64,000 bases of DNA from Ilyonectria destructans (taxonomy: Eukaryota > Ascomycota > Sordariomycetes > Hypocreales > Nectriaceae). The stretch is taken from contig JAHEWK010000013.1 of assembly GCA_020740775.1 (NCBI GenBank), positions 1,488,001 to 1,552,000 of the forward strand. The letters run 5' to 3'. The notes under the pieces were generated by a model that saw only the letters and a program-made list of their open reading frames with translations, was not told the origin of the DNA and made no database searches. Of this stretch, positions 34,616 to 62,695 are shown in pieces. How positions within the stretch are numbered: the stretch's first letter is position 1; each line of letters opens with the position of its first letter. The position numbers were made by a program, and so were the translations under genes.

Positions 34616-36438
34616 TTACCAGTGGGGAGCAAAGGTGATGAAGCCCATGAGGCAACCGGCAGTGAGACCGGCAACGGGAACGGTGATGAACCATCCCATG
34701 TAGATCCAGCCGACCATGCGCCAGTTGATAGAGCGCCAGTCACCGTTGCAGAGACCAACACCGACAATGGCACCAGTGATGCACTGAGTAGTGGAGACGG
34801 GAAGCTCTGTGTAATGGTTAGTATATACAATCATGGCAAGTAAAATTCAAGACTTACTTAGGCGGGTAGCGAGAATGATGGTGATGACGGAGCCCAACTC
34901 CATACAGAAACCACGAGCGGGAGACATGAGAGTGACACGGTTACCCAGGTTAGCCATGATGTTGTATCCGTAAGTCCAGAGACCAATGACGATAGCAATA
35001 CCACCAAAAGCGAGGATCCAAATAGGGACCTCAGCCGTGGCGCCAGAAATCTTGCCGGTGTTCCAGATCTGGTAGATGGAAGCGTAGGGGCCGATAGCGT
35101 TGGCAACATCGTTGGCACCGTGGACGAAAGAGGCGGCGGCGGAGGTCATGATCTGGAGGAAGGTGTAAAGGAACTCGGTGCGGTTGTCAAAGTGCTCAGC
35201 ACGGGCGTGGATTTCCTCAACATCGCCAGCAACGACAGACTTCTGGCTCTGGGAGCTGACAATGTCCTTGTCAACACCGTGAAGGATAGCGAACTTGATA
35301 GCCCACCAAATGAACTGCTTGCTGTACCAAGGACCCGAGGGCTTGGGGCCGATCATGGACTTGTGTGTGGGGGCTGTCTGCTCAGGAACCTCCTCGGAGG
35401 TGTTGTCACTGACGTTCTTCTCGTGTTGACCCTCAATATCCTCAGTGACAGTGGCAGCACGCTGAGCTTGTCGGGCGTCGAGCTCCTCGCGGGTAAGGTG
35501 GCCCTCGTAGAAATCGCGGACGATACCCTGGAAGTTGGCAGGGGGAGGGGGGACGGGACCGCGGCGGAGCAGGAGGGGGCCCTGGAGGATGTGGTACCAC
35601 TTGATCTGCCAGTCCTCCTTGATGACGACACGGTACAGCCAGGGGACAAGGGTGACAGCCATGAGAAGACCCCAAGCGGCACCAGCAGCGACGATAACAC
35701 CAGGGATCTGCGCCTCGGTGAGGTTGACCTTGTATGAACCACCCTTCCAGATGAGAAGCATGGTAATGAGAGATCCAGTAACCCAGAAGTAGACGGGGAC
35801 AAGGAAGAGACCAATCATGGCAGGCTTCTTGCGAAGGAGGACACCATACTTTGTCAAGAGGAAGAGGGCAGCTCCGAAGAAGCCAGAGAGCATAGGAGCG
35901 ATGATCCATGCGAGGAAGACCTAGCGACGGTGTTAGCAGACAGATGCGATGGGGCTTGAATGAGTTTACTAACCTGGACGACACCCTGCTGGATATCAAT
36001 AGAGCCATTGTCCTTGTAGCCAACCCAGGTAATACCACTGCCACCAAGGGCACCAACACCCATACCGAGGACACCGCCAAGAATAGAGTGGGTAGTGGAG
36101 ACGGGGAAACCGAAGCGAGTAGCGAACGTAAGATAGACAGCAGAGGCAATGACGGCGCAGACCATACCGAGCATGAGAAGCTCAGGCTTGTCCTCGAAGG
36201 CGTCGATGTCGACAATCTGGGTTCGGATAGTGTCGGCAACACGGCCACCGACACCGAGGGCACCAGTGAACTCCATGGCGGAGGCACCGATCATGGCCTG
36301 GAGGTAGGTGATGGATCGCGACGAGACGGAACTGGCCCACGAGTTGGCGACATCGTTAGCACCGATGTTCCAAGCATCAAGGAAGGCGAAGATTGTGCCG
36401 ATGGCAAGGAGGTAGTCGTATTGGGAGAGGACGGCCAT
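34616..36438 (-). CDS. pho-4: Phosphate:cation symporter, PHO-4/PHO89 (PiT) family
   Basis: Minus-strand exons 36438-35974, 35920-34858, 34806-34616; 572 residues. Introns are 53 and 51 nt. The duplicated PiT signature is visible in both halves: AWNIGANDVANSWASSVSS near residue 25 and FVHGANDVANAIGPYASIY in the second half. FGFPVSTTHSILGGVLGMG and LKLPVSTTQCITGAIVGVG form the matching second pair. About ten to twelve membrane segments flank a ~150-residue hydrophilic loop (ANFQGIVRDFYEGHLTREEL onward) that is probably cytosolic. Family knowledge: high-affinity Na+ or H+-coupled phosphate uptake at the plasma membrane, induced by phosphate starvation through NUC-1/Pho4 binding CACGTG. One CACGTG lies at 37204-37209, about 0.77 kb upstream. 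A 14-nt tandem repeat lies just upstream of the start. Confidence 0.93.
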
Positions 36439-39400
36439 TGTATCAACTTGTGTCCGGAGACGGTGCTAGACCAAAATAATGCTGTGGAGGGGCCCAAAGA
36501 GAGCAGGAATCTGATTGCTACCTATAAGACAGGAGCGAGAAGGAAGAGTCTTGAGTGCTGGTTGTTGAGTGCTGGCTGTTGAGTGCTGGTTGTTGAGTGA
36601 CCTGGAGAGTAAGAGGAAGGACAGAAGGGGAGCGAAAATAGGAAGCTATATATCTAGAAACGAGCAGCTCTAGATGAAGAGAATTCCCACAGCCATTGCA
36701 CTTCGCCCAGGTAAGAACGATAGTCACACGTCCACCCACACACCCTCAGCTTTGACCGTCGAGACATGGCCACTGGCGTTGGTGTTGTGTGTGGAGTCAT
36801 CTGAGTGCCAAGAGTGGAACTTCTGGATGCTACGAGTGGGAACACAAGTCGTGCCCAGTTCCGTAAAACGGCGTCTCGGTCGGCAAGGGAGCAAGCCAAG
36901 GATGAGCCCTGGTCAGCGTCTTGGAAGAATCCAACAATCGATCCAGGCTGGGAGGCGTCCCCTCTCTCTGCTGGCACTTGTTGAAACGGGTTCGCTGTCG
37001 ACGAGGTGGAGCGTCCTCCATACAACGAGAAAGAAGAGAGGAGTTCCTCGGAGCTGGACCCAAAGGAATAAGCTTAATGATTGAGTGTGGGCGCAAAGGA
37101 TTCAAGCTCACGGATGTGGGCTTGTGCATTAACTTTGACGTCGTGTCTCGTCTATTCCTATCCTGACGACAATCGTTTCTCCTCGACCAGGAAACAACTC
37201 AGCCACGTGCAACCTCAATGCGAGCACGCGACACAATTCCCAATGCGTCACCGGCGCTGCAAAGAGGCGTTGCAAAAATACGGTGGCTGCAGACCAGGGT
37301 TGGCTGCAACTAAAGCCGCGACGGCTTCTGGATCATCGGGTGGCATCACATCCATCCGCGGTAGAGTTTGACGGGCGACGCTGCATGCTCGATCCCAGAT
37401 CCACCGGCCCGAGCGACTTGTGGCCCGCATCCTGCTCATACTTCCGGTATTTTCGTCGTCAAAGGTCCCGCAGGTCCTCGTAGATTGCTCGGGGACTCCT
37501 TAGTCGGGTATCATATGGTGGTATTCGCCCTCGTGGGAGGTTTGAGCTTTCTGATCGGTCAAGTTGGATAGCAAGCCCCCGCTTTGGACGGAGGCCAATC
37601 CTTGGGGAAGAGATTTTATTGCATCCCAGTGGATGCCAGGCTGAAGATCGAATGGGGTCCTGAATGAGAGCCACGGCACGCGACTCCTCTCCTCATACGG
37701 CGTGGGGTTCCCGAACGACGAGGATGGGCCAATTGGACCTGCGCCACGCGCCCAGCTTCCATCTCGCAGAAGCTTCGGTGCCCTAATCAAGGCAAGATCC
37801 AATAGCCAGGAGGGTCTTTACAACCCTGGACAACTGACGACGTGAGGTGGAAGAGTGGATGGGTAGAACGGTGGAAAGGTGGAAGATGGAAGATGGAAGA
37901 GGGTGGTGTCAAACATGCAGGGTATCGATTGTGGGTGAGCGGATGGACCCGCCAAGACCCCAAGGCCGCGCTAATTCCTCCACTAAACCCCCATGGCTTC
38001 AGAGGCAAAACGCAACTTTATCCCGGATAGAGTCAGTGGAGGCTTCTAAACGGCTTAGCGGGGAAGGACGTGCTGGGCGCACGAGCCACCATCGGGGTTA
38101 AGAGCAGGACTGGAGCCTCCCACACACGCTGCAACGTTGAAGGATCTTTAAAACATCCCGGTATCTTGGCAACAACACTATTCTTGTATTGCAACTTCAA
38201 TTCTCATATTGCTAACACGTCTCCATAGGACTGCCCGCCATTCGCTGATGCTCTACATCCCTCATCCACGTCCAGTGACCTGAACCGCCAAGACCTGAAC
38301 TGCCAAGAAACACACAGATCTCCCCGACCAGCCAGATTGCGTGTCTCACCCACGTTGCCAATCGATGACTCTCTCCTCGGCTGACTTCTCCACCATCGAC
38401 GCGGCCTCCCTCCATGCTCGCATATCCCGCAGCGCGGCTCGGTCGACTCGTCGGTATCCAAACAGGGATGGCGCCCGCCGAGCTCTGTCTATCAACACAC
38501 CCATGCGCCATGACACGCCTCAACCTTGTCTTGACGCCGAGCAAACGCAAAGCTTTGTTTTCTCCACATGAATTCGGTATGTCGATCTTCCTAGCCAAGA
38601 GACAAGCTGAAACGGGAAGACAACCAAGATCACCATCCCCATGCAATAAGAGTCGGCTATGCCTCAAGATGCCACGCGTATAGCCATGTAGCAATCGCCA
38701 GGAAAGATCTTCCATCGTGGGTCCATGGAAGGCTTGGGCGAATGACCCTTCTGAAGCCAAGACGGAACTTCCGTGTCCGATACTTTGACTTTGGTCTACA
38801 AGATCGTCAACCAAGCTCCGTCCAATTCCCAAACTGCCCGCCACGGGTGGCTACCACTCTAACGATATCCGTGTCGACTCGTTGACTATTTTAGGCTTGA
38901 TCAATCCACTATCGGTTAGTTGTTCGCGTTGCCTTCCGTGCGGGTCTCGTCAAGCATCTCCATCCGCAAATGCTCCTTCGAGACCATCTCGGTCAGCGTA
39001 TAGTGCCACGGGTAGCTTTGCCCCAGCTCCATGTCCGCTCACGAAATGTCTTGCAGCCGGTCCGATTAGCCTAGTTCGCATGATCCCCATTACTTCCAAG
39101 GGCGTAATTCTTTGATCCGGCCAAGAGGGAGTACCCTGGCCTAGTCTTGTTTAACCCCGGTGTGGACTGTTGAAGCTTTCGGTCCACATGGATCTTCCAT
39201 TGGCTGACACTTGACACATGGCTTTAATTATTTAAGACGGCAAAGCAGAAATACCATGTTGGTGACTGGACAAACATGTGTTTCTTGTTCGCCCCAGTCA
39301 TCGGGGACACCACCACCCGCGTTTCCAACTTAAAATTTCTGCCTCAGTGCGCGTTTCAACCCATGATTATGTTACGAGAAACATATCCGGGCCATCGTCA

Positions 39401-40631: not shown

Positions 40632-41208
40632 TAATTTGAGCTATAAATGATGACGATTACTTGCGATTAGTCCCGTCGTTGTTAATCATTGAGTTGAACG
40701 GCGGAGTGGTTGTGAAGGTGTGTAGGGTAAGTATATCATCCAGGATCTTTTTATTGCAGTCGTTGAAGAGATGTAGGGAACTGGAGGACTTCATGTGAAA
40801 TGATAATGGAGTATAATTACTGTAATAAAATGCGCTTGTGAGGTCTGACGTGTAAAGCTGAGTGCAAATAAGTGGTGGCTTGAAGTTGTATTTTGTGACT
40901 TCGTAAGCCTCCTTCTACAAAAGTCGACGCGTTTGTGTGTATTAATTTTTTTTGGTCTGCCTGTCCCTCGCTTGCATTGTCAAGCATACCCCCTATGAGG
41001 CAAGTAATCATCTCTATAAACCTCTATTCTATTGGCATATCCGACTTGTTCACTTCGTCTTGGTCATCGTGCGTACCGAGAGGCACATTCTTAGGCTAAA
41101 AGCTTACCTTAATTATTATATCTAACCTAGGAAATAAACCTTATTCTTAAGATAAATAAATACTATGAATATTCTTATTTAAATTTTATTTTCTCAACTG
41201 CTGTGGGA
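40632..41208. other. Intergenic, AT-rich 3' flank of the transporter
   Basis: 41090-41200 is strongly AT-rich (TAAGATAAATAAATA-like words) and directly abuts the stop of the siderophore-type transporter. No gene is seen. Confidence 0.55.
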
Positions 41209-42993
41209 TCAAATGACATGTCCTTTGACCTGCTTGATGCCATTGACATTGATGTCTCGCCACATAAACGTGGCTACAAAACCAACAGCCCAAACAGCAG
41301 TACCAGCAATCAACATCATCTTCTGGGCATCACCGTAAGCATGCTGAATAGCGATACGGGTAGCCGATTCCATTGGGTACATGAGTTGTGTAGTTAAGTC
41401 GGCATAGATGGTGGCCAAGTTGGGCAGCTCTTCAGCGGGAAGATATTCGGCGAGCTTCTTTGGGAAGACATCCTGCCAGATTGAGGCCGCTACGGTAAGA
41501 CCGATAGCACCACCAATTTCCGAGAACATGGCCTCGACAGCCAAGACGACAGCAACGTGCTGATGCGAAGCGGCGGCCATGGCAGCGATCTGGTCGCAAA
41601 TGATGATAGCACCACTAGCAAACCCGACGAAAATTAGACACATGACGATGTATCCAATCTTGTCGTCAGGCTGCAGAAAGTTGATCATAAGGCCTAGACC
41701 AAGGATGTGCAGAGGAACAGCACACCACAGCGAGACGGGCTTGAAGCGACCAGTCTGGCGGATCATCCAACCCACGGCGAGCGCCCAAAGGGGACTACCG
41801 ACACTATAGGCGTTAAAGACATAGGTAGAGTCAGTAACGCTTAGATCGTGAACAACCATCAAGAAGGAGCTGAAATAGCTGGCCCAGCAGTAATAGCTAA
41901 CAAAAAGCGTCGCTGAAAGAACGCAGGCGCCGAGGACTGTGCGATCTAGCAGTAGAGAGTAGGGAATAAACGTAATAGATGCAAAGAACTTTTCCCAAAG
42001 GATAAAGACGACGATAAGAGTAAATCCAAAGACAATCAGGCATATAATAAGGGGAGAACGCCATCCTTGCTCTTGCATAGAGTAGATATTAAATGGTAAG
42101 AGGAAAAGCGCCAAGCCAGCAGAGATTAAAAAAAGACCAACTGCATCGAACTCGCGGCAATAGTAGGCAAAGGACTGCCAGGGCGTTCGTTGACTTTCGC
42201 GCTTAGGAACAAGCCCTTGCTTCTTGGCCTTGTTGAAATTATACACAAATAAGCCGAACAGTGGAAGGGTAATGATGGGTACGACAATCGAGAAGGTTCC
42301 AAAGGCCCAGCGCCAGCCTGGTCCCCTAAGGTAGGCTTCGGAAATTGGGCCAGATAGCCAGGTGGTGATGAGATTGGGGGAAGACGCGAAAGCGATCATG
42401 AACCCTCGGTTGCGTAATGACGTTGTATCTGCAATAAAGATGGAGATGCTATAAAGCAAGGCATTCTGGCCAACTGTATAGAAGACTTGAGCTGCGGCAT
42501 ATAGCTCGACCGTGTTACATGCGGCCATCATGATGAGTCCAAGTGTGGTCAAGATAATAGAGAGTAAATATCCTTGGGGTCGACCAAAAACGTCGAGGAT
42601 CTTGGCGAGAGTGAGCTTAAAGACACCGCCAATGATACTGCTGATAACAGTGACGGTGGGCGTGAGTGAGTGCTCTTGGAAGGCGGAGGTCACAAAGGGA
42701 GTCAAGGCTGCTAGGGCGCCTTGCTGCATGAGCATGACGAAGTAGATGACCCAGATCATCACATAAGCGATGATCAGGGACTTGGTCGACCACACTGAGG
42801 TGACAGCCTCGATGTTCTGCACACCAGCCTGAGCATCGGCATGGACTGGCTCTTCGTCATTGGAGCTCGAGTGTGCGTCACGATCATGACCCGAGTCGCT
42901 GAAGACCACGTTAGACTTATCCACGATAGAACCATAAGCTCGTGGTGGCGCTGGTGGCAGCAACACAGCCTCATGGTCCTGGACCGAGCCCAT
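41209..42993 (-). CDS. Siderophore-type MFS transporter (SIT/ARN family), isocyanide cluster
   Basis: The open frame extends upstream to 43185, but Met at 42993 (MGSVQDHEAVLLPPAPPRAYG) is the likely start, giving 594 residues. After a ~65-residue hydrophilic N-terminus come about 14 membrane segments. Family marks include QNIEAVTSVWSTKSLIIAYV, LAKILDVFGRPQGYLLSI (the MFS loop 2-3 motif), NRGFMIAFASSPNLITTWLSGPISE, and a C-terminal amphipathic stretch LPNLATIYADLTTQLMYPME typical of Sit1/MirB-like carriers. Family knowledge: proton-coupled uptake of ferric siderophores. It is divergent from the NRPS-like gene and shares an ~850-nt promoter with it. In this setting it may instead carry a copper-isonitrile complex or export the product; that is inference. 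Confidence 0.9.
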   Translation of the reverse strand: MGSVQDHEAVLLPPAPPRAYGSIVDKSNVVFSDSGHDRDAHSSSNDEEPVHADAQAGVQNIEAVTSVWSTKSLIIAYVMIWVIYFVMLMQQGALAALTPFVTSAFQEHSLTPTVTVISSIIGGVFKLTLAKILDVFGRPQGYLLSIILTTLGLIMMAACNTVELYAAAQVFYTVGQNALLYSISIFIADTTSLRNRGFMIAFASSPNLITTWLSGPISEAYLRGPGWRWAFGTFSIVVPIITLPLFGLFVYNFNKAKKQGLVPKRESQRTPWQSFAYYCREFDAVGLFLISAGLALFLLPFNIYSMQEQGWRSPLIICLIVFGFTLIVVFILWEKFFASITFIPYSLLLDRTVLGACVLSATLFVSYYCWASYFSSFLMVVHDLSVTDSTYVFNAYSVGSPLWALAVGWMIRQTGRFKPVSLWCAVPLHILGLGLMINFLQPDDKIGYIVMCLIFVGFASGAIIICDQIAAMAAASHQHVAVVLAVEAMFSEIGGAIGLTVAASIWQDVFPKKLAEYLPAEELPNLATIYADLTTQLMYPMESATRIAIQHAYGDAQKMMLIAGTAVWAVGFVATFMWRDINVNGIKQVKGHVI

Positions 42994-43233
42994 GGTAAAT
43001 TTGGCAATCAGTAAGCTTGGATAGGATGAAAAGAAACGACGTGCTGTGGAGAAAGAATAAAGTGTTGAGGACGGAAGTGAAAGAGACGCCAAGAATGAGC
43101 GGAGCCTTAAAGATAGCGACGGTGACAAGGATCGAGGACAAGAGCGGACCGCGGAAAGCAGCCTGCTTACAGCATAAACGACCAACTAACATCTGCCGCT
43201 CTCATCCCTCTTACACAGTGGGTTGCAAAAGAA

Positions 43234-43241
43234 CTTGCTCA
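43234..43241 (+). promoter_or_regulatory. Mac1-like copper-response element candidate (CTTGCTCA)
   Basis: CTTGCTCA differs at one base from the yeast Mac1 element TTTGC[T/G]CA. It lies 241 bp upstream of the transporter ATG and 0.6 kb upstream of the NRPS-like ATG. Confidence 0.35.
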
Positions 43242-43660
43242 AATACAGCCGCCCACCCTATTGTGGGTTGTATCGTGTCAGCAGCGCGCATACGAGGCAC
43301 TTCACACACGGATAACTCATCGATCTGATCAACGGAGTATTCGCGGATCGCGTATGCTCCAACTTACTACATGAAAGAGTATGAAGCAAATCGGCACGAG
43401 AATTGAACGTAAATACGTCCATATTGTAAGGAGTTGTTACAGTCGCGCGTGTATGTTTTGAGCCCATGTCAAGCTACGTTGGGTCTAGAAGCCGCACTGT
43501 TGCAGCGGGATTGCCCGAGAAGACAATACGAACAGGGACGGGATCCTCATGAGCCCCGAGATACAGGCATGCTGACTAGAGGGCTGCACATAAGCCTGTC
43601 GTTCGTATACCCCTGTATGGGTGGTGGCTCGGCACGTTTGAACCCATTTTTGAGCGAGTA

Positions 43661-43668
43661 TGAGCAAC
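43661..43668 (-). promoter_or_regulatory. Mac1-like copper-response element candidate (GTTGCTCA)
   Basis: On the minus strand it reads GTTGCTCA, 172 bp upstream of the NRPS-like start. It shares the TTGCTCA core with the other cluster promoters. Confidence 0.35.
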
Positions 43669-43839
43669 TTTTTTCGCGAATGGTAGTCGGCCAGGGTCAA
43701 CACGGACATGGCACCTCTCTGCATATGTACTGTATGAACTCTACGCTGTTGCCTTATCATTCGCCAGTGCTATAGCTCAATCATCCCAACGATATCGACT
43801 TGCTTCTCGCTTGAACAGCTTCCCTGGGGATTTGCGGCC

Positions 43840-46800
43840 ATGTCCACCTCAACCGATTACGGCAAGAGGCTCATTCCTCAAATCCTGGACGGCCTGGCTT
43901 CTTCCGAGCCGAACCGTATCATATACTCGGTAGCGACGTCTTCGGACATTTCTCAGGGATTTCGGGAGGTATCTGCTCGTGCCTTTGCGAAGGCGGTCGA
44001 CAAAACTGCTTGGCTGCTCCATAACCAGATTGGACAAAGCCCGACAATACAGACGGTTGGCTATATCGGACCTCGTAAGTTGGAAACTAAAATGAGCCCC
44101 ATGATATACCCATGTCTTCTTGAACTCTCAATTGACATACTCAGATGATCTTCGGCACATTCTGTTGACGTACGCCTGTGTCAAGGCTGGTTGCACGGTA
44201 CGTTGTAGTCTCTCATACCACAAGCAGGACGCACAGTTCTCTTGCTAATTCTGCTCATTCTTTCCGCACAGGCCTTGTTTCTTTCTCCCAAAAACAGTAT
44301 TGAAGGGGCGCTAGCGGTCCTTGAGGCAGCAAAATGCAAGACTTGGGTCAAGCCTAGCGGGAAGACTTATCCCCTGGTGGAAGATTTCCTACAACAACGC
44401 GCCATGAAAGTCCTTGATCTCCCTGGACTTGACGAACTTCTCGATGCTGAATCAGCTGAGCCGTATCCGTATGATAAGGCGTTTGATGAAGCTACACAGG
44501 ACCCATTCTGCCTCCTACATACTTCTGGTTCGACAGGATTACCCAAGCCGATAGCATGGTCCAACGGTCTCATTGGCACAATGGATGCCGTGCGCCTGCT
44601 TCCGCCAACCGAAGGCGATGGCGGCATGGTCCCTTGGACGTCAGATTGGAATGAAGGTGATAGGATATACTCATCGTTCCCTATGAGTCATGTATGTGTC
44701 TTCCCTGACTGTCTTGAAGAGTGCCTAACGTGTTGAGCTTATAGGGAGCTGGTATTATTATGAATATCCTCTTGCCTTCCCTCTTCGGGTTGCACTGCAT
44801 TATGGGGCCTGCAGGCGTAATACCTAACATGAATCTCATTGAGTCTCTTGCAGAGGATGCGAGAATTGATATCTGGAGTATGATTCCGTCGCTAGTTGAT
44901 GAGCTCGGCGAGACCCCCGATGTCTTGGCCAAGTTTAGGCCGTCGAAGTTCATTTGTGCATCAGGTGGTAAGCACATTCCTCCATCATAGGCCGCTAAAC
45001 TCTCTATTCTTCGCGATCAAAACTAACGTATTATTCAGGTCCTGTCAGTCCGATTAGTGCTTCTAAAGTGAACGACACAATTCGGGTCCTCAATTTGACA
45101 GGCACAACAGAGGGTCTATTCATTGGTAATCTTTGGGTAGATAGGGAAGATTGGCTCTACTTTGCCTTCCATCCCTTCTCTGGCTTTGAATTCAAGGAGG
45201 TTGAGCCTGGTATGTTTGAGCACTGGGTAAATCGCAACGAGCATGCGCCACTGTTCCAAGGCATCTTCCACACGTTTCCGGATCAAAAGACTATCAACCT
45301 CAAGGACCTCTACGTTCGGCATCCTACCAAGCCAGATCTTTGGGCTTACAAGGGAAGAAACGATGACATCATTGTCCTATCCAATGGCTATAAGATATCA
45401 CCCTTGGACACGGAGGCCTTGATTACAGCCCACCCTGCGATTGAGGGCTGCCTTATGGTAAGTAACCCCAAAGCGCACCCAGCCTTGTTCTATAGATGAG
45501 AGCCATATAGCTGACCGGAATGCCTACAGATCGGATCAGGAAAGCCCCAGGCCGGCCTGCTTATTGAGTTGAAAGATCCATCATCCGGCAACGACGAGTT
45601 GTTTAACAGCATCTGGTCCACGGTAGAGAGAGCCAACGCGGCGTCTCTGCACAAGAACCAACTACAGAGAGACTACATCGCCTTTGCAGAGCCGGACAAG
45701 CCCTTCGTTCGCACCGACAAGAGAACCGTTAAGCGACGCGCCACCATGGCACTGTACGCTGATTATATCGACCGCTTTTTCAGCTCTCGGTTAGAGGATG
45801 AGGATGCGCAGTTTCTGACGATTGACACGACCTCGATTGAGTCCATTACCCGCGCCATTCGCCACATTTTCGGTTCCGTGTTGCCGGAGCTCAAAAACGT
45901 CTCACCGGATGAGGATCTGTTTAGTCTCGGACTTGACTCGCTCCTCGTGTTTCGCGTCGTCAAATCCATCCGTGCTGCTACTGGTCTGCGCGATCGGCTC
46001 TCTCCTCGACATCTCTACGCAAGTCCAACCCTTGCCAAATTCGCCGCCACTATTGTACGGCTGGTAGCTGAGGCGAAAAAGGCAGAAACCAACGATTCGT
46101 CGGATGAGCCCGCTGATCCGGTTGTCGCCAAGATGAGGAAAATGATGGACTCGCATAAGTCGCGACTCTCGGCCAAGGTCAACCCATGTGATCTGATGAA
46201 CCCCAACATCTACGTGGGAATGAAGTTTTATTTTCCCCTGCGTGAAGGAGCCCGCTTCGAACAAGTATTTACGAGATTACAAGATGGCCTCCGCCGCGCG
46301 ATTCAGCTGATTCCAGAGCTCGAGGGCAAGGTAATGCGTTGCTCTGAGCACGAAATGGGATACAAGAAAGGTGACCTCCGCATCACCCTTCCCCTCCTTC
46401 CATCGACGGCCACCTACGACAGCAATTCTACGGACTCCTCTACGGGTCCGAGACAACTGCGCTTTAAGGATCTATCCGACAGCCTCCCATCATTCGAGGA
46501 GCTGCAGGCTGCCGGATTCGTATCTTCAGCGTTCAAAGACGAGGTTGTCCTTGAATGTCCGTGGTTTCCGCCGCTGCCCGCCGACGTCCTGATCGCACAA
46601 GCCAACTTTGTCAAGGGCGGATGTATCCTCGCCATCAACGTTCACCATGCCGGATTCGATGGTGTTGGTGTCATCACTGCTTTGAGAGTATGGGCTGAGA
46701 GCTGCAGATATGTCCAAGGCGATACTTCAGCGATGTGCAAGTGGTTAGACCCCGAGAGCCTGAACCGCGAGTTGCTGCACGTTCTATATGAGCTAGAAGG

Positions 46801-47713
46801 ATATGCTAAGCCAGCTCACGAAGTAGATCCCAACGTCTGGGGATTCCTGGGATTTCCAAACCCAGCCGAGCTTCAGAATGGAAACGGAGCTGTCAAGGCG
46901 AAGACTCCTCCAAGGGAATCAACTCTCCCTGCACCACCTCCTTTTCCTCGGAAGTTTGCCTGGCCACCCCTTCCTCCCGTGGATGGCAGACCCATGAGGT
47001 CTACCACGTTCCTCATTCCGCCCGAGAATGTAGAGAAGCTGAAACAGGAGGTGTTTGCTGACCCGGAAGCCAAGGGGGTAGTAACATCTATCAGCGACAT
47101 TGTCCAAGCCTTCTTCTGGCGCGCGGCGATGAAGGCCCGATATCGCGTGGCAAAGCTCCAGGGAGAAACCTTCGGACCTGACGATATCTCCATTGTGGAG
47201 ATGCCCATCGACGCCCGCCCGTACTTCTCTTCGCTACTCCCGTCGTCGTACATGGGCAGCTGCCTTGTAACAAATCGACCCTACATGCCCGTAGAGGAGC
47301 TCTGTGGACCGGAGACGAGTCTCGGGAAAATCGCACATCTTTTCCGCGAGGCTGCCACAAAAATCACCCCATCTCTGGTGCACGATGCCTTCACGCTCCT
47401 CCAGTCTGTACCCGACTACAGCATGCTCACCAACGCCTGCATGGGCCTCGCAGGAATGCATTCTATGATGAACAACATGATACTCTTCCAGACGAGTGAA
47501 ATCTCGTTTGGTGGTGAGTTCTTCGCTAATGAAGGCGTTCCCGACACGATGCGAGTGCAGATGGATCGGTTTAATACAGCGTTTCGGCTATTGATTATCC
47601 ACCCAATGCGCGCAGATGGTGGTGTTGAGCTGCTACTGGGTACACTCCCTGAAGAGTTTGACATGTTGACAACGGATGAAGAATTCACCAAGTACGCTAG
47701 GTTTATGGGATAG
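43840..47713 (+). CDS. NRPS-like enzyme: adenylation, thiolation, C-terminal acyltransferase (A-T-Tr)
   Basis: Exons 43840-44074, 44145-44197, 44272-44691, 44745-44967, 45039-45457, 45530-47713; 1177 residues. All five introns (70, 74, 53, 71, 72 nt) keep frame and have GTA[A/C/T]G donors. The adenylation domain covers about residues 1-540: LLHTSGSTGLPKP (A3, ~177-189), FPMSHGAGI (A4), LNLTGTTEG (A5), LKDLYVRHPTKPDLWAYKGR (A7/A8, with a divergent A7), VRTDKRTVKRRAT (A10 lysine). The carrier domain has LFSLGLDSLLVFR with the phosphopantetheine serine near residue 587. From ~650 a BAHD-type transferase has HHAGFDG (H823-x3-D827). The usual DFGWG is not evident. Family knowledge: A. fumigatus CrmA has the same A-T-transferase order after an N-terminal isocyanide synthase. 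Here that domain is missing and a separate synthase gene follows downstream. Proposed role: load an isonitrile acid on the carrier and pass it to an alcohol acceptor. Confidence 0.9.
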
Positions 47714-48268
47714 CCCTAAGGCTAATGATACGTCCCTGGGTTAGTTAGTACGATTAAAAAACTTGCCAATGCTCTATATACTTCGTAATTGATGAGTGAT
47801 AAACGTTTGCTCTCCAGGAACTCATCAAAGACTGTGAGTCTAAGCAAAACTGGAACGCGCAGGTCGAGCCGCAGAGGCCTACTACGGCTATGGCTCTTCT
47901 GGCTCTACCTGTCAAAATACAACATATAGACATCATAACACCACAAGAGGAACAACCTACTACTGAAATTGACTCACTAGTTGCTGATTCAAAGTTTAGA
48001 GGAACTGATAGAAGGCCGAGAATCAAATTTTGCCACTGGGTGTACGGAGTGGAAATCTGTTTAAGCACTCATCTCACCAAAGTTGAAATCACAGAAACAC
48101 CCTCCTAGGATGAGTAACCTTAATGGTATGCTTACGCTGCCACGTCTTTCATCCAACGGCCACGCAGTGGCAGGACGCGCAAGCCCATGCACTAAGCCCC
48201 GGTCTGTCTCGACTGACCGTCTTCAGTCACGCCTGAAGAACGTCTTGGCGGTCCAACCGATCATTCAG

Positions 48269-48276
48269 TGAGCAAG
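48269..48276 (-). promoter_or_regulatory. Mac1-like copper-response element candidate (CTTGCTCA)
   Basis: It reads CTTGCTCA on the minus strand, identical to the site at 43234. It lies about 1.0 kb upstream of the isocyanide synthase start. Confidence 0.3.
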
Positions 48277-49010
48277 TTAGCGCAATATGATAACAGCCAT
48301 CACACCGTTGTTTCTTTCATCGCCCCATGCTTATACACTTAGTAATATGAGAAGGTTCACGGTCATTACTATTGGCCAGTTATCCGGCACAGTTCCCAAA
48401 TGGTTGTTGTACCTATACGGCCTTCCCGATCTACGAACCCTGTGCTGTCTCTTCCCCAGGCCCACAAGGCAGGCACAGTCAGCACAAACGAGGATGATAA
48501 GGACGGAATCATCTCCGGGGGCTTACTTCCTGGCTGGGGTAAACCAAACCCCAGTCCTCTCCCCTACGCAGGGTTCGTTTATTGAAACCTGCGCAAACTG
48601 CCGCCACTGGCGCTTGGTCTCGCCCCGGGCTGGCCCGAGAGTCTGCATAACCGTGGAGCGCTTAGCGTGATCAAGAATCAGAGGCTTATAACTAGACCTA
48701 ATAAGGAACCTACTTCGCACCATTTTCTGAGATATCCACGCACATCGCCGTGTTCTTCATTCCTTCAGCTACGCGATATTCAACTAGAATCATTCAGACT
48801 TAGCTTCATATGGGCTGACGAGGGTATCGACGAACCATGAATTTCCCTCAAATCTCGTGGCCTGATGCTGATAAATTTGCGCAAGGGATTGAGGTGGCGG
48901 AGCGCAGCGTCCATGCAAGGTGTAAGCAGCCTCGACAGATGTCACGGGGCTTGGTGTTGTAGTCGCATTTTTCATTGACGTTACAGGAAGTGTGAGAAAG
49001 GTAAGAAAAA

Positions 49011-49018
49011 TTTGCTCA
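49011..49018 (+). promoter_or_regulatory. Perfect yeast-type Mac1 copper-response element (TTTGCTCA)
   Basis: TTTGCTCA matches the yeast CuRE TTTGC[T/G]CA exactly and lies 268 bp upstream of the isocyanide synthase ATG, a usual distance for a fungal activator site. Confidence 0.45.
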
Positions 49019-49278
49019 GCCAAGGCCGTTGATGCGCAGGGCATCCGTGGATGGATTGAGTGCCCGAACCCCGGCCAGTATTGACTCTTGGATATCCCTC
49101 CTTCCTGCTTTCCTCTCCTTTCACTCATTCTTGAGATCTCTTCGATCTGTTCATCTCCTGGTTCATGTTGCCCATCATGCAAGTCCTCCCCCAAGTTATT
49201 CATCAACCCTTTTCCCAAGTTGCCACTATCAGACTGGCTCCGAGCTATGAAAACTCCACACTTGTCTCCCGTGGGCCG

Positions 49279-50467
49279 ATGGACGCGACGATGGAGGTGA
49301 CAGAGACTTCCTCCAAGATCTTGGCCATAATCTTTGAGTACGCCCTCAATAAGTTCGATGACACCGTTGAGCGGCTCGCTGCAGGCATGCCCAAGTTCCT
49401 ATCAGTCATTGACCAATTCGTCGTGTCAGGGAAGCAGGTTGATATGTGCCTTCCAGCGTTCCCATTCAAGTCAGCAAATAAGGTGTACAAAGTTTTTGGT
49501 ATTCTGCCAGATAAGGCCGAGGAATTGGCCTTGGACCGGTTAAATACTATGTGTGTGCGTATAGCAGAGGTGTATGCGCCAGGAGCTAAACTCACTATTA
49601 TCTCTGACGGCCTTGTTTATAATGGTTTGCAGAGCTATCCCTCTTACTGTGAATCATTGCTAATAGGTGTTTGCATTTCATAGACTTATTAAGCATACCT
49701 GATCGCGATACCTGGGCGTACGGGGAGGCTTTGCGCGCAATGGCCGTTGAGAATGGGTTTGTCCATATTGAATTCTCCAGACTTAAAGATCTTATCAAGT
49801 TCCCGCTGCCGGAGCGACTTGGAGAGATTACCTATGTCGCCAATGCTACCAACTTCCGTCGGTTTCTCCTCAATAAATATGGCAAGGAAGACCTCGATAT
49901 CGATCACGAAATAGCCACCGAGCCCGACACGCTAATGACCTACCGTGGATATCGAAGATTCCTCGAGTCAGACCTGCAATATATCTTCCCCACTGGCAAG
50001 AATAGAACAGGCAATGGTTACAAAAGAGATGTAAAGTATCTCGCCAAGGAGATGCTAATCCGAGGATACGTAAGTTTAATACGCCACTGCATTGTGTGGA
50101 ACTGCACTTTCAAGTATGCGCTAGCTAAATATCACCTAAACAGGCTTTCGCCAGAGCAGCTAAAGACGCTTTTCCGAGCCATCTACGACTCTCCATCCAT
50201 CAATCTACGGGCGAACAAAAGGTATCCATGAGTTTGCTCAACACTAAGACTGGATTCACGACTCCGTGGCATTGTAGCGTCGCTCTAATGGCGGATGGCG
50301 AGTGGCTAAGTGCGCCTATGGGTGAGTTCAAGAAGGATCCCAGACTAGAAATCGTCTATATGGATGGTCGGCCTAGTTATTTCAAGGAAAAGATGACTGA
50401 GTGCCATAAACCCATAAATGGCGAGCAACTGAAAGGAGTTTTCTCTTGGTTATACTCTTGGTCATAA
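49279..50467 (+). CDS. Stand-alone isocyanide synthase (DIT1/PvcA family)
   Basis: Exons 49279-49624, 49684-50069, 50144-50467; 351 residues. Introns of 59 and 74 nt restore the family's sequence across each junction (VYN|DLLSIPDRDTW and RGY|AFARAAKDAF). PAFPFKSAN (about residues 59-67) followed by VFGILPDKAEELALDRL, then LTIISDGLVYND, WAYGEALRAMA and NATNFRRFL run in the order of the Pfam DIT1_PvcA domain, which fills the whole protein. Family knowledge: converts an amino acid's amine to an isocyanide using ribulose-5-phosphate carbon (PvcA, IsnA, fungal ICS); yeast Dit1 is a relative. No fused dioxygenase, adenylation or thiolation domain is present, unlike CrmA-type or ICS-dioxygenase fusions. 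The start at 49279 (MDATMEVTE) was chosen as the first Met near the family N-terminus; 49291 is an alternative. Confidence 0.92.
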
Positions 50468-50937
50468 TAGATAATTGGCTTGTGCCTTAGGGGATTGTAG
50501 TGTATTGAGGCAGATGACATGGATTGAAGTGGTGAGACTTGGGGGATAAAAGGGAAGGCATATTTAGAGCTTAGTAATTATCGACTTCTCATTCAATTCG
50601 GTATTTTCCGTCTTTCTATTTGTTCCATTTGATGTGAAATTATTTACCTTTATGACAATCAAGATCCTTTCCATCTTTATTTGTGATTTCAGGGTCACAA
50701 CTATTTGGCCTTTTATATTGCTATTCAATACCACCTTCCTGTTGAGTTTATGTGGCATGCATGTAACAATGGTGAGCAAGTTTGCTCTGATATTGCGGTA
50801 TTATTCGTATTCTTGAGGGGCACATTATGTTATGGATCCTGCTTCTCCATTTAACGCCAGCACAATAAACACAAATTCCACGTCTTTCTTCCTTTACTCC
50901 AATATCTGTCGGTATCCTCACTGCCTCACTTAGCAAG
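50468..50937. promoter_or_regulatory. Intergenic, acyltransferase promoter
   Basis: 470 nt between the synthase stop and the acyltransferase ATG, AT-rich in the middle. It contains the inverted TTGCTC pair at 50773-50788. Confidence 0.55.
50773..50788 (+). promoter_or_regulatory. Inverted pair of copper-element half sites (TGAGCAAGTTTGCTCT)
   Basis: TGAGCAAG (minus-strand CTTGCTCA, the same octamer as at 43234 and 48269) abuts TTTGCTCT, giving a near-perfect palindrome 150-165 bp upstream of the acyltransferase ATG at 50938. Confidence 0.45.
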
Positions 50938-52493
50938 ATGCAAGCCTTGACTCGTTTGTATGGCTCACTATTCAACGTGACGCATTACCCGACAGTAGAA
51001 GCCGACGAGGTTTATCCACTGCATTTCCTTGACAATCTATCCACAGGACGCGTCATCGTTTTAAGCGAGACCTTGCGGTTCGATCAGGTGCTGGATGCCA
51101 ACAAGCTACATGATGGCCTCGCAAAGTTAATTCAACAAGGCCACTGGAGAAAGCTTGGCGGCCGACTTCGAATGCAGGTGAGAATCGATCTAGGTTTCTA
51201 CTGGTTTCTGGCGACTGATCACCACTCAAGCCTGATGGTTATCTCGAGATCCACGTGCCAAAAGAGTTCACTCAGGAGCGCCCAGCAATTCGATTCACCA
51301 CAGAGGTTTTTGACATCGCCATCGAAGAACACAACCTTGGAAGGCAACTGCCCAAGGCCACTGGTGGTCCTTCTCTACAACCAGGACCAACTACTTTCGA
51401 TCATTTCAGTGGTAGTTCGAACGGGCCACTTACATTGCAAGACTACCTCTGTGGCGATCACCCCATACTCGGTCTACACGTCACTTCTTTCACTGACTCA
51501 ACCCTTGTTGCTCTTGTCTGGCCACATGCAGTTGCCGGTGCCCTAGGGCTGAAAGAAATATTTTCAGCCTGGTCAAGGGCACTCCAAGATGAAAACGACG
51601 TGCCGGAGTTACTCGGAACTCACAAGGACGTCCTAGACGGTATCGGAACTGATAAAGACAACCCGTCACCATACTCTCTAGGACCGAATGAAATCAAAGG
51701 CTGGGGTTTTGCCAAGTTTGCTCTTCGACTGCTGTGGACTGTATTTTGGCGTCCAACAGTCGAGTCCCGTGCCATGTACCTACCCCGCCAATTCGTGTCA
51801 CAGCTAAGGTTAAGCTCGCTGAAAGAGCTTGAAACGGTACACGGGAAAGACAACGCTCTCTTTCTCAGCGATGGAGATGTACTGACGGCCTGGGCGGCGA
51901 GGTTTGTCGCCCAGTCTCGTGAAGGAACACGTCCAGCCTTGATATTCAACCCCCTTGATATCACGACTCGACTCAATGCACCTCTGGAGACTGGGGGAGT
52001 ATACGTGCAGAATATGGTTGGCGCCATGTATACCACGATTGATTCTGACACCTTGCGGAAGAAACCACTTGGGGAGCTGGCACATGCAGTGCGCTTGAGC
52101 ATTCAGCAACAGGCTACAGATGAGCAGATCCGTGCCCAACTGCGTATCTTCAGACAACTTGGACATAAGAAGAGTGAGCCACTATATGGAGACCCAAGTT
52201 CCCAGCTGGTGGCTTTTTCCAATTGGGCCAAGTTCGATATTTTCAATGCCATCGACTTCAGCCCTGCCTTATCTAAGACTTCGTCCCTCATTGACGCTGG
52301 ATCACTCGGGAAACCAGTGTATATGCACTGTCAATCCTTAGGAGAGAATCGATTCCAGAGAGATTGTTTTGCTATTACGGGGAAAGACTTGGGGGGTAAT
52401 TACTGGATCTCTGCATTTCTTTATCCCGAAGACTGGAAAGCGTTGGAAGACTACATGGAACAAACTTGGCAACGTTGTAGGTACACATTTTAA
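50938..52493 (+). CDS. BAHD-like acyltransferase (trichothecene 3-O-acetyltransferase type), isocyanide cluster
   Basis: Exons 50938-51177 and 51231-52493; 500 residues. The 53-nt intron joins GGRLRMQ to PDGYLEIHVPKEFT, a conserved N-terminal junction of this family. The sequence starts LFNVTHYPTVEADEVYPLHFLD and has a typical first-domain length. The catalytic region reads ALVWPHAVAGALGLKEIF: the histidine is present (near residue 179) but the Asp of HxxxD is glycine. The C-terminus (NYWISAFLYPEDWKALEDYM) is normal for the family. Family knowledge: CoA- or carrier-dependent acyl transfer to an alcohol or amine. Fungal relatives are often mislabelled LysR family regulatory protein. Same strand as the synthase, 470 nt behind it, so it is probably a tailoring enzyme. 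The lost Asp may alter activity. Confidence 0.85.
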
Positions 52494-53252
52494 ACTGTAG
52501 GAAATGGGTATACTTTTCCAGGCTGGAGTTAAGCTTGGCCGATGCTTCCTATTCCATCGCACTTTGAACCTCTTCATGTACCAAGATACTTAGTCTTAAA
52601 GACTAAGGACCTAATATTATTATGATCCACATCTGTGCCATTTCTTATTTTTTTTTTTGAAGCTGTTTAGGGTAGCGTCATATGATTTTTTCTGGCGTCT
52701 CGAGGAAACCATCTACATTCTACTTGCAAGCAGCCACTGTCACATGAGTCTCAGCAATTCATCGGCCATCACATACAACCGGACAGACCACTTAAGATGG
52801 AGCCGCAAACTCTCAAGTCTATGATTGATGTTTGAACGCATAAAAATGGACTATTATACAACCCTTCGGCTCAGATATCACCCGTCTGCCCACTCTAAGC
52901 TCTATCACAGGCAATCATGAGAAGAAACATAGTCCAAACCGCAAAAAGTCACGTTTCCAAACCATTTGGACCCTCTGGACTACCCCCGTGAGCCATACAC
53001 CGCCCGCTTCTATATGGAACAAGTGGAACAGCCAGGCTCCGGAGGCCCAGCTCTTAGGCTCTGTCAGGCCGCGCCCAAGGAACCACTCATCTAATCCCCC
53101 CCATTATATCTCAACGATTTAAGCAGGAATTTCTACTTCGCTCGCTCGAGGACAGACAGCGTCCCCTAACCCACCGCCAGCGCACTTGCAACTTTTCATA
53201 TAACCAACACATCGTGACATTGCTTGGATGATTCACAAGAGATGACGGCCCG

Positions 53253-53320
53253 AGGCCAGCTGGTTGGGCTAAATCCTAAACATGCGTTCGAGTACATAAA
53301 GACTCCTGGAGATGCAACAC
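53253..53320 (+). repeat. Promoter-like duplicated segment, copy 1
   Basis: GCTAAATCCTAAACATGC, then CGAGTACATAAAGACTCCTG, then GATGCAACACC, match the same words in the same order at 54330-54402. At its right end the match stops and the adenylation-domain fragment begins. Confidence 0.65.
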
Positions 53321-53373
53321 CGGGTAAATCGTAACGAGCATGCACCGCTGTTCCAAGGTATCTTCACACGTTT
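53318..53373 (+). pseudogene. 56-bp broken copy of the cluster's adenylation domain
   Basis: It aligns to 45221-45277 of the NRPS-like gene (HWVNRNEHAPLFQGIFHTF region) with 51 of 57 columns identical. The differences are five transitions and one deleted base, which shifts the frame. Neighbouring bases on both sides do not match the gene, so this is a small displaced fragment of it or of a lost paralogue. Confidence 0.75.
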
Positions 53374-54329
53374 GGTGGGCATGGAAGTGAAAGAACATAC
53401 AATAACATTACTTAAATAATCCTGTCGCATCTAGCAGATGGAAATGATCATGTGTGCGAGAAGCTCTTGATATTCTTCCTATCTAAAGAGGGTCTTTGGG
53501 TCAGTCTTATAGATGAAGAGACTGATGATGACCTCGGATGACCTCGGACAGCCGAGAGGCTCCGGATCCTTCGGAGTCTTTGGCTTCAGCTAGCTATAGA
53601 TAAAATCAAGGAAAAGCTAGGCCTAGGGCTTATCTGATGACGAGGCCGGTGACGAGGCAAGTGGCGATGGACGCCTGTGATGACAGAGGAAAAGCTTCAC
53701 TTCCGTCATAACCGCAGAAATCCGATATCCCGATACATGTGACAAATCCACAAATAACTGATGGTACAGTATTAAAGAGAGGATAGCCTGAGGCCAGCCA
53801 GTTATTTATTTATTTATTATACTTACTCTCTTTAACTAATACTAATTATCTAGAATATCTACTGTATCTAGGGTAGGAACTATATAGATCTAGCTAAAGT
53901 TAAGTTAACCTTTTCTATTCCTAGCCAGATAAGACCTCCCTCTGCTGAAATATCACACACCTTCGGACTAAGAGCAGCTCCTTAGCCAATTTATACCTAC
54001 TCTTACTGTAGGCCTATTCTATCTTGAGGCAGAATTGCCTCGAGCTCTCCTCTTCCTCGAGTCTCCCAGTTTAACTTCTCCGTGAATCATGCCCGGCGGC
54101 TGGGTGCCGGGCTTCCGGCCTTGACTCACGGTCACTGGGGTATATAGTCGTCGCCTGCCCCCGCCCTCGAGATCTTATGTTCCTCCCTTCCTCATCCCTG
54201 CTTTCAAGACAAGTCTCGACCCGACCTCGACCCTCAATTCGCCCTTCCTTCCTCGTTTATACCTCGATCTGGCCTCGGCCTAACCTCGACCAGATGTCGT
54301 CTGGTAGTGGTACCCTCGCAAGCGCGCCT

Positions 54330-60245: not shown

Positions 60246-62695
60246 CTACCGTAGATCCTCGCTAACGGGCTCATCCGGCACACCATCATGCATCCGCCCA
60301 AAGGCTTCCCGATACTGCGTTACAAGTTAGCATTCGTCTTCCACACTTTTGACATAAACTTACTGCGAAGAAAAAGTTGAGGAGCAGGGCCACTATCAAG
60401 GAAAAGCTGATAATGATAGGTCCAATCATGTTGTCAAAGTCCTTGCCGCTCCGCTCCAGAATCATGCTTCGTCGCGTCTGCATCATTCCATAGCCCCAGA
60501 GTCCTGCAAAGATGGCAATCAAGACGTAAGTGATGCCCATGATCTCAGCAACCGTGTTCTTGCCAGCTGCCGAGTACAGACCCATCGCCAGGCCACCCTG
60601 AAGGATGCAGATGTGCTGCCACTTGAGGAAAGTTCGCTCGTTGGCCAACCACACCTTGGGTTCCACCTTGAGCTCGCCCAAGTTCTTGATCCACTCCGTT
60701 GGCTTCACAACACCCTCGGGGAGCGCCGCTGAGGCCCGTTTAGCCTTGGAGTACTTGGACAGCGAGAACCCCGGAATCACCGACGAGAGTGTTCCGTAAC
60801 CCCTCTCCTGCTCCTCTGTCTGTCTGGAACTGCTCTCTCCCTCCTCTTCTCCGTTGTTCAGTCTCGATACCCGGTTGTTCAGGGAGTGGGACATCGAATC
60901 CTTCGACATGCGGTCCGCCAGGTACGATTTGCTCACGGGCGAGCTCTGCGCAGGTCTATATGAGGCCGACTTGCCACCAATTAGGCTGCCCACCGCCATA
61001 ACGTCCTCGGCGTGCTGGGCACGACGCTGCTCCTCTTCCTCAAATACCGCCTGGGGATCCTTGCGGATGTCCGTCTCCAAGTCGCTAAGCCAAAAGGGTA
61101 GGTTGTTGACATAGTCCTCAAACAGAGACGCCACACCGTGGACAAACTTGGAGAATCGTGGGGTGGAGTGGACCAGGTGGGATGCCATGAGGTCCTCAAC
61201 CCAAGAGGGGCGCTTTCGTTGGCCGTCCTCCTTGAGCTTAATCTCGAGGAGAGCGTAGGGGAACCGGTTAACCTCGCTCTGGTTCATCTTCTTGAATGGG
61301 AACGTCATCTCGCTGTCGTCAATGTCGAGGCGGTGCCACTCGTTGGGGTCACGGCAGGGGCGGTCCTGGTCTAGGGTGTCCTCACGGATGAAGGCAACAT
61401 TGGTATCGATGGCAATACGGATGCGGTCGTCGGCAGGCCTCTGGAACGCGGTTCGGAGGTAGTTGGCTCGGAGGACGGGGCTGAGGCCCTTTTGTTGCAC
61501 GAAATTTTGGATCGTCGAGACCGCCTTCTTGAATAGATCTTGCTGCTCCACCGTGTAGCCCTTCCTCTTCATCTTCTGGACGGCCTTGTCCAAGTCGTAG
61601 TCGCCGTCGATAAAAGTCTTGACGTACTTTTCCTTGATGGAGAACTTGAGCTCCTGGCTCTGGCCCTTGGCATCAATCGTCTTCTGCTCAATAAAAATCT
61701 CCGGGCGAGAGCCCAGCTGTCCGTACCACCGCATACGCAAGGATGAGGCCTCGGTCTGACGATTGACCTTTTCACCGTATAGATCGAATTTGGGGCTATC
61801 AAAGTAGAGCGAGGTGATGGTAGGAGAGTCGTTGCCGTCGAGCTCTTTGGCGGATTGCTCGCTGTAGACGAGGGAGGGCAAGTGTCGCAGGATGACAGTC
61901 TTGACTTCGAGGAGGTTATCGGGATGAACCCAGACTGCAAAGCGTGTTAGTGGATTGGACTCGATGGATTGTTAGGCACTCAAGGGTGACGAGAGACGTA
62001 CACTTGTGGGAGGTGTAGCGCTCGCCATTGTGAGTCTCGCCCTGGGTCTCGAGACCCAGAGGGGGAAGCTGGTCGGTACCATCCTCGAGCTGCTGGCGGA
62101 TTGCAAAGTACATGATAGAGAGCTTATTGAGGAGAGGCGAGTAGCCCTGCTCCGAGTTGAAGGGGCGCTGCGACAAGCTCAGCTGCATCATGGGGCGGAC
62201 CTTGTATCGGTCACCTCGCTTGCGGTCGTGCTTCTTGACAATCTTGAGAAAGCCAGTATAGTTGATGTTGCTGTACTTCTTCAGCTCGCGAACCTCGTTC
62301 GTAATGCCGTCGAGCTCGGTCTCGAGGGCGCGCAGGCGAGAGGCGGAGATGTCACCCTTCGGCCGGGGAGGTTCGGCTTGGGCACTGGCCTCAGCATCGT
62401 CGGTGGTGGACTCGGGGACGGGTTCGGGGGCGAGCTCCTTGAGCTTCTCGAAGGCAGAGTCGGCGCGGTGCTTTAGGGCATCTACTCGCTCCTCTTGGAA
62501 CTTGGCGACCTTGTCAAGCTGGACATTGAAGATTTCGTCGCAGAAGCGCTCCTCGTCATCGGCAGTCCAAGGCTGCTGGGCATCGTCATCGGCCGAGCGG
62601 TCCTCGCGGAGCAAGCTCTTGAGCTTGGTGTAGTCGATGTACTTATCCTTCCATTCCGGATAGACGGACTCGCGCAGAGTCCTACCGAAGCGCAT
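60246..62695 (-). CDS. vtc4: Vacuolar transporter chaperone polyphosphate polymerase, VTC4-like (SPX-VTC-DUF202)
   Basis: Minus-strand exons 62695-62002, 61934-60364, 60314-60246; 777 residues. Introns are 67 and 49 nt. The N-terminal SPX domain is MRFGRTLRESVYPEWKDKYI to about residue 180, with the lysine-rich KKYSNINYTGFLKIVKKHDRK (inositol-pyrophosphate pocket). The tunnel domain (about 225-560) includes SLYFDSPKFDLYGEKVNR, LRMRWYG, IFIEQKT and ALLEIKLK, the basic residues and glutamates expected of the catalytic Vtc4 type. Three C-terminal membrane segments form DUF202 (ICILQGGLAMGLYSAAGKN, GITYVLIAIFAGLWGYG, IIISFSLIVALLLNFFFA). Family knowledge: makes polyphosphate from ATP while moving it into the vacuole. 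Vtc2/Vtc3 share the layout but lack active-site residues; I favour Vtc4 by motif. Confidence 0.88.

Follow-up and report, generated by a model that had tools for sequence, protein, structure and literature searches.

The genome of the fungus Ilyonectria destructans (71.7 Mb in 74 contigs) carries, in a 64-kb stretch of contig C5 that we call the window (C5:1488001-1552000), four adjacent genes that we read as an isocyanide biosynthetic cluster of the crm type. This is a known kind of cluster, here in a split form, in which the isocyanide synthase (ICS) and its nonribosomal peptide synthetase (NRPS)-like partner, an adenylation-thiolation-transferase enzyme (A-T-Tr), are encoded by separate genes. 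We put the probability of this reading at roughly 70%. A first-pass annotation had already taken the locus for an isocyanide cluster, a reading that our results support in kind, and the four genes that it claimed were all recovered by spliced models and domain scans. All four are intact as spliced models, with eight introns that are GT-AG throughout and 53-74 bp long:

41209-42993, minus strand: MFS transporter, SIT-like, 594 aa, one exon, divergent from the A-T-Tr gene (MFS_1 85.2 bits, TRI12 33.3 bits)
43840-47713, plus strand: A-T-Tr, NRPS-like, 1177 aa, six exons (43840-44074, 44145-44197, 44272-44691, 44745-44967, 45039-45457, 45530-47713)
49165-50467, plus strand: monodomain ICS (DIT1/PvcA), 389 aa, exons 49165-49624, 49684-50069 and 50144-50467
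50938-52493, plus strand: BAHD-fold acyltransferase, 500 aa, exons 50938-51177 and 51231-52493, with HxxxG replacing HxxxD

The first ATG of the transporter lies at 42993, the earlier frame of 41209-43185 having run from stop to stop.

A likeness to the crm cluster of Aspergillus fumigatus had been suggested from the outset, and a search against CrmA (P0209 in our protein set, 1581 aa) bore it out. Residues 15-334 of CrmA align with the window ICS at 68% identity and residues 419-1577 with the window A-T-Tr at 60%, and the two window genes together cover nearly all of CrmA. Among 240 proteins fetched, 45 matched both the ICS and the A-T-Tr queries, always in the order ICS then A-T-Tr, and some of these were partial. 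Database relatives are reported from the best matches listed (120 of 975 for ICS, 120 of 442 for A-T-Tr and 120 of 140 for BAHD), and the A-T-Tr and BAHD searches scored only candidates sharing most words.

The synthase matches the DIT1_PvcA profile at 332.8 bits against a curated cut-off of 26.4, over profile positions 1-271 of 273; the first-pass annotation had named the absence of this homology beforehand as a reason to abandon its reading. The best PDB sequence match of the synthase is the solved PvcA structure 3e59 (E 7.9e-35). In the A-T-Tr, five Pfam domains all exceed their cut-offs (AMP-binding 82.7 bits, AMP-binding_C_3 102.4, TRI-like_N 51.3, PP-binding 39.9 and Transferase 25.6), and the motifs TSGSTG, SFPMSHGAG, GTTEG, RTDK, GLDSL and HHAGFDG are kept. 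Its fold was judged on a model of a relative, P0121, which is 83% identical (mean pLDDT 79.9, pTM 0.56) and which matched, in order, NRPS multi-domain structures, TRI101, and then acetyl-CoA synthetase, 4-coumarate ligase and EntE; the first 50 structure matches also include the proline-activating PltF. The carrier-domain Ser is present in 39 of 40 aligned relatives; the exception, P0159 of Fusarium sarcochroum, has Leu at this position and may be inactive as a carrier.

A. fumigatus CrmA shares the motif SFPMSHGAG, as do 36 of 40 aligned relatives; the four that lack it have close variants. Adenylation domains that activate amino acids carry Asp235, and SFPMSHGAG would stand in the place of that residue. 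Because of this, the ICS may act before the adenylation domain, whose substrate would then be an isocyano acid.

The label of BAHD-like given earlier to the fourth gene also held, by way of its fold. The Pfam Transferase match is weak, though above the cut-off (26.6 bits vs 22.7), and the fold was judged on a model of the relative P0242, which is 75% identical (mean pLDDT 89.1). This model has the TRI101/HCT fold, matching COSY, TRI101 and HCT at E 4e-23 to 3e-22. By its modelled fold, then, the window acyltransferase is a BAHD protein, although catalysis is not assured. In a survey of 46 aligned relatives of the 120 listed, the BAHD motif read H..G in 24, H..D in 18 and other pairs in four, among the last of which was P0272 of Apiospora hydei, where Asn replaces the His. 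A PDB sequence search returned no close relative for either the BAHD or the MFS protein, TRI101 appearing at E 0.54 for the former.

For the transporter, NCBIfam returned bacterial drug-efflux families far below cut-off. The SIT-type label finds backing in the neighbourhoods of its paralogues, whose copies on C74 and C6 have siderophore-type acetyltransferase genes at a distance of about 3 kb; these places are two of the four loci that have such an acetyltransferase above the cut-off. The C6 paralogue contains stops in the frame when read without regard to introns. These neighbourhoods support the putative SIT label, and the direction of transport is a prediction: because SIT carriers are importers, uptake is our guess.

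The link to copper, formerly a guess, now has promoter support in the form of predicted Mac1-type sites in all three intergenic regions of the cluster. In Fusarium oxysporum, the crm cluster comprises five genes with Mac1 sites, consensus DHNTGCTCA, in every promoter except one shared promoter; Mac1 binds these genes, whose expression rises when copper is lacking, repeats varying widely for three of them (PMC11563359). The candidate sites in the window are as follows:

43233-43241, plus strand: ACTTGCTCA, predicted Mac1-type site, between the MFS and A-T-Tr genes
43661-43667, minus strand: TTGCTCA, in the same intergenic region; does not fit the full DHNTGCTCA
48269-48277, minus strand: ACTTGCTCA, between the A-T-Tr and ICS genes
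49011-49018, plus strand: TTTGCTCA, 146 bp 5' of the ICS start codon
50773-50781, minus strand: ACTTGCTCA, 5' of the BAHD start codon

The window contains only three copies of ACTTGCTCA, one in each intergenic region of the cluster. With 723 copies genome-wide (551 for the reversed control), 0.028 would be expected in the 2767 bp that these three regions span. Expectations drawn from 1000 shuffles gave a similar picture, with three copies of ACTTGCTCA against 0.04 and five of TTGCTCA against 0.53 (neither count reached in any shuffle), and TTGCTC ranked 15th of 1489 six-letter words by excess in the intergenic DNA. As a positive control, we counted the same motifs in 4 x 1500 bp upstream of the genome's four Ctr copper-transporter genes and found DHNTGCTCA 11 times vs 2.20, TTGCTCA eight times vs 0.98 and ACTTGCTCA five times vs 0.05, with 0 of 1000 shuffles reaching each; ACTTGCTCA stands upstream of three of the four. 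Because the nine-letter ACTTGCTCA, a form of the published Mac1 site, was picked after inspection, the result is best stated in two parts: enrichment is mild for the published consensus and strong for the form present at three of the four Ctr genes.

The choice of ACTTGCTCA after inspection also bears on the possibility that this is an isocyanide cluster of other chemistry, using another amino acid and making a product unrelated to copper, with the sites there by chance or for other genes. TTKGCTCA is not enriched across the whole window (6 vs 5.90 expected), and the window A-T-Tr falls in a different deep clade from both CrmA and the F. oxysporum enzyme, as would suit such an account. TTTGCTC occurs 19 times vs 10.83 expected. 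Set against this are the adenylation-domain motif SFPMSHGAG that the window enzyme has in common with CrmA and the occurrence of ACTTGCTCA in all three intergenic regions as well as at the Ctr genes, and we consider the account quite unlikely.

Other copper-type motifs were followed through the genome. An inverted pair of sites, GAGCANNTTTGCTC, had 14 listed genome matches, a count in which one palindrome figures twice; no match lay within 1.5 kb of a Ctr gene, and the pair was dropped as evidence for that reason. Dense arrays of ACTTGCTCA occur at three places: on C12, 5' of a Ctr gene, and on C11 and C1, where the surroundings were read for open reading frames only. The C11 array (C11:1102889-1102918) is a triple of ACTTGCTCA, TGCTCA and TTGCTCA, like one 5' of the C12 Ctr gene, and may mark a further Mac1 target.

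Several observations weigh against the crm reading. The enrichment of DHNTGCTCA in the intergenic DNA is mild, at 4 vs 1.11 expected, and 32 of 1000 shuffles reach this count. The window BAHD protein reads HAVAG in place of the HxxxD motif, the Asp being missing, and no protein named crmB occurs among the BAHD matches listed (best 120 of 140). A close ICS (78% identical) on C10 has no A-T-Tr beside it. Finally, the lichen-forming genus Xylographa has an ICS/A-T-Tr pair and no BAHD among those same matches. This last point would also fit a narrower account, in which the isocyanide pathway consists of the ICS and A-T-Tr genes only and their MFS and BAHD neighbours act elsewhere. Deletion of crmB-D left the CrmA products unaltered in A. 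fumigatus (PMC9381783), and a second split pair in the I. destructans genome, on C17, has no BAHD relative near it, the genome's BAHD matches lying on other contigs. We nonetheless think the narrower account unlikely, since Mac1-type sites also stand in the MFS/A-T-Tr and ICS/BAHD intergenic regions, BAHD relatives are apparently on the same contigs as ICS or A-T-Tr rows in several Sordariomycetes, and crmB and crmC of F. oxysporum are induced by copper starvation (PMC11563359).

The genome holds six ICS loci, one of which is the second split pair:

C17:420270-426156: second split ICS/A-T-Tr pair, divergent genes

Its ICS is 78% identical to that of the window and its last A-T-Tr exon 59%. Both have near-identical counterparts in Ilyonectria sp. 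MPI-CAGE-AT-0026: the ICS matches P0008 at 99.4% identity over 324 residues, and the last A-T-Tr exon matches P0151 at 94.6% over 737. No TGCTCA occurs in L010:5101-5930, which is nearly all of the DNA between the two C17 genes. A fused crmA was sought in the genome and none was found; the last A-T-Tr exon, used as a query, matched at full length only in the window and on C17. The other four ICS loci (C67, C10, C5 and C1) have other neighbours among the frames scanned. Upstream of these genes, the consensus matched once at C10, once at C67 and not at all at C5 (588 kb) or C1. The C10 ICS adjoins a PDR-type ABC transporter, and the C5 and C1 loci each have FAD monooxygenase and MFS pieces.

The C67 ICS is dit-like and has P450 pieces and a terpene synthase piece nearby. 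The window ICS belongs to the same Pfam family as the dit-type synthases, and several of its database relatives, among the matches listed, are named DIT1, so the window genes might be taken for a spore-wall (dityrosine) group. However, there is no P450 among the four cluster genes, the genome's dit-like ICS with P450 pieces is that on C67, and its alignment score with the window ICS is 208, as against 1291-1361 for those on C10 and C17. We give a dit-type group almost no weight.

Turning from the crm assignment to how widely its split form is spread, we found 24 ICS/A-T-Tr row pairs on contigs of equal size (from 96 ICS and 74 split A-T-Tr rows among the matches listed). Eleven of these pairs have consecutive locus tags, six in lichen assemblies, three in Fusarium and one each in Xylographa and Plenodomus. 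Where contigs are long, equal size indicates the same contig and not adjacency; P0009 and P0161 of Ilyonectria, for instance, share a contig size and fall in different lineages. BAHD relatives are on contigs equal in size to that of an ICS row in five cases and to that of an A-T-Tr row in five, among the matches listed; in Niveomyces all three are on equal-sized contigs, and in Apiospora marii the locus tags are 007517 (ICS) and 007519 (BAHD). A record named for the moss Sphagnum balticum holds an A-T-Tr (P0163) and a BAHD protein (P0244) of this fungal cluster, and because both are on contigs of size 91134, the record probably carries fungal contamination.

In a tree of 122 A-T-Tr rows, the window enzyme lies in a 31-row clade whose members are all split (branch value 100, starred), separate from a 91-row clade that contains lichens, Dothideomycetes, the F. 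oxysporum enzyme and all 44 fused rows of the set. The fused label requires three changes on this tree, of which starred branches force two: within the main fused clade sits one JGI row that had no ICS match and may be a fragment, and the fused P0141 and P0183 fall outside that clade. On a tree of 167 ICS rows the label requires six changes, four forced by starred branches, and some of the rows counted as monodomain are fragments, P0079 for instance holding the start of an A-T-Tr. The ICS tree hinted at a second fusion in Lojkania (P0141), which was not upheld in a reduced, 50-row A-T-Tr tree, where the 18 fused rows chosen (of 44) form one clade (97, starred). The search behind this 50-row tree was not optimal, since in one test the constrained tree outscored the unconstrained one by 35 log units. 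A single fusion of ICS and A-T-Tr is plausible. These were quick trees without bootstrap, and because their roots were placed at the midpoint or on a very long dit-type branch, we infer fusion rather than fission.

Three A-T-Tr proteins from three species of Xylographa are nested in the otherwise Sordariomycete all-split clade. Holding the 28 Sordariomycete-labelled rows together without Xylographa lowered the log-likelihood by 141.6 (p-AU 1e-109), and placing Xylographa with five other lichen rows lowered it by 498 (p-AU 4e-11); the 28 rows include metagenomic and moss-record rows, and the groups were defined with the first tree already in view. This nesting suggests horizontal transfer. Contamination of lichen samples could also explain the placement, although the gene occurs in three named species, and transfer stays a lead.

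Separate A-T-Tr genes occur in lichen-forming fungi and in groups that we take to be Dothideomycetes, Leotiomycetes and several lineages of Sordariomycetes, and for this reason the split form seems to be the general background, with the fused CrmA as one branch. Nickles et al. portray the split arrangement as restricted to Fusarium (PMC10153163). A wider history is possible, at a little short of even odds, in which the split form is old and widespread, the window cluster represents a separate deep lineage that has its own HxxxG acyltransferase branch and moved horizontally from Sordariomycetes to Xylographa, the fused CrmA arose later in one fusion, and copper-controlled and copper-independent copies coexist in one genome. 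If this history is true, what copper control and what fusion each add could be told apart.

Taking together the genes present, their intact motifs and homologies, the linkage seen in other fungi and the promoter sites, all observed here, we propose the following mechanism. Under copper starvation, Mac1 (MacA) would bind the TTGCTCA-type sites and turn on the four genes, a step that is known in F. oxysporum and A. fumigatus and is carried over to the window cluster by analogy. The ICS would convert an amino acid, of which valine is the likeliest by analogy with CrmA, to an alpha-isocyano acid, which the stand-alone A-T-Tr would activate and load onto its carrier domain. The TRI101-like domain may then transfer the acid to an alcohol such as mannitol, mannitol esters being known for CrmA products, to yield an isocyanide ester. 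The BAHD enzyme may add a further acyl group, and the SIT-like carrier may move the compound or its metal complex, perhaps inward. We infer the order of the ICS and A-T-Tr steps, and likewise the last two steps. Fungi commonly carry isocyanide clusters, which crm links to copper, and two split copies in one genome, one with copper-type promoter sites and one without, offer a direct test case for the role of copper control.

The edges of the cluster were partly as claimed by the first-pass annotation. The AT-rich flank at 41090-41200 stood (GC 0.216, equally low in 0.25% of 111-bp windows); the relics said to follow 52494 were not demonstrated. GC at 52494-54000 is 0.449 vs 0.514 for the whole window, neither of two frames scanned between 52494 and 60289 had a Pfam match, and the same interval contains one 32-bp direct repeat. 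A PHO4 phosphate transporter gene (34850-36465) and VTC/SPX polyphosphate-type genes (60289-62716) lie on either side of the cluster, a linkage that may be chance, and a 2136-aa frame at 24827-31234 on the minus strand encodes an NLR-like protein with NACHT and many ankyrin repeats.

In the open-access literature we found no paper on this locus or on a split isocyanide pair in lichens, which is weak evidence of absence, and the nearest known systems are those of A. fumigatus and Fusarium. In A. fumigatus, CrmA produces valine isocyanide, and its neighbours encode a predicted alcohol-O-acetyltransferase (crmB), a siderochrome-iron transporter (crmC) and a Ctr protein (crmD; PMC9381783). That cluster has the same enzyme parts as the window cluster, an acetyltransferase, a siderochrome-iron transporter and control by MacA (PMC9381783, PMC5974471), but its ICS and A-T-Tr are fused (P0209), whereas the window has two genes, and no Ctr match corresponding to crmD was found among the window frames scanned. 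The F. oxysporum cluster has a siderophore-type transporter, of which the window MFS is a putative counterpart, and resembles that of the window in its stand-alone A-T-Tr, ICS gene, acetyltransferase and Mac1 promoter sites (PMC11563359). Its crmA is termed an ICS-NRPS-like enzyme (PMC11563359), and FOXG_09770 (P0187) has A-T-Tr domains and no ICS domain, split as in the window. It differs in having an extra hydrolase gene and in its A-T-Tr, which is 59% identical to that of the window and belongs to the other deep clade.

ICS proteins have been classed as monodomain, ICS-TauD or ICS-NRPS-like, with crm as the sole fused family (PMC10153163). In the same study, gene cluster family (GCF) 8 is described as specific to Fusarium; its monodomain ICS adjoins an NRPS whose domain make-up is that of crm, a fusion is proposed, and a terpene synthase is mostly present (PMC10153163). 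The window shares the arrangement of a monodomain ICS next to a separate crm-like NRPS, and no terpene synthase was found in the window frames scanned. The P0187 lineage would correspond to GCF 8. Given that this kind of cluster was already known, what is new here is the split form in a separate deep clade, the evidence from copper sites and the placement of Xylographa.

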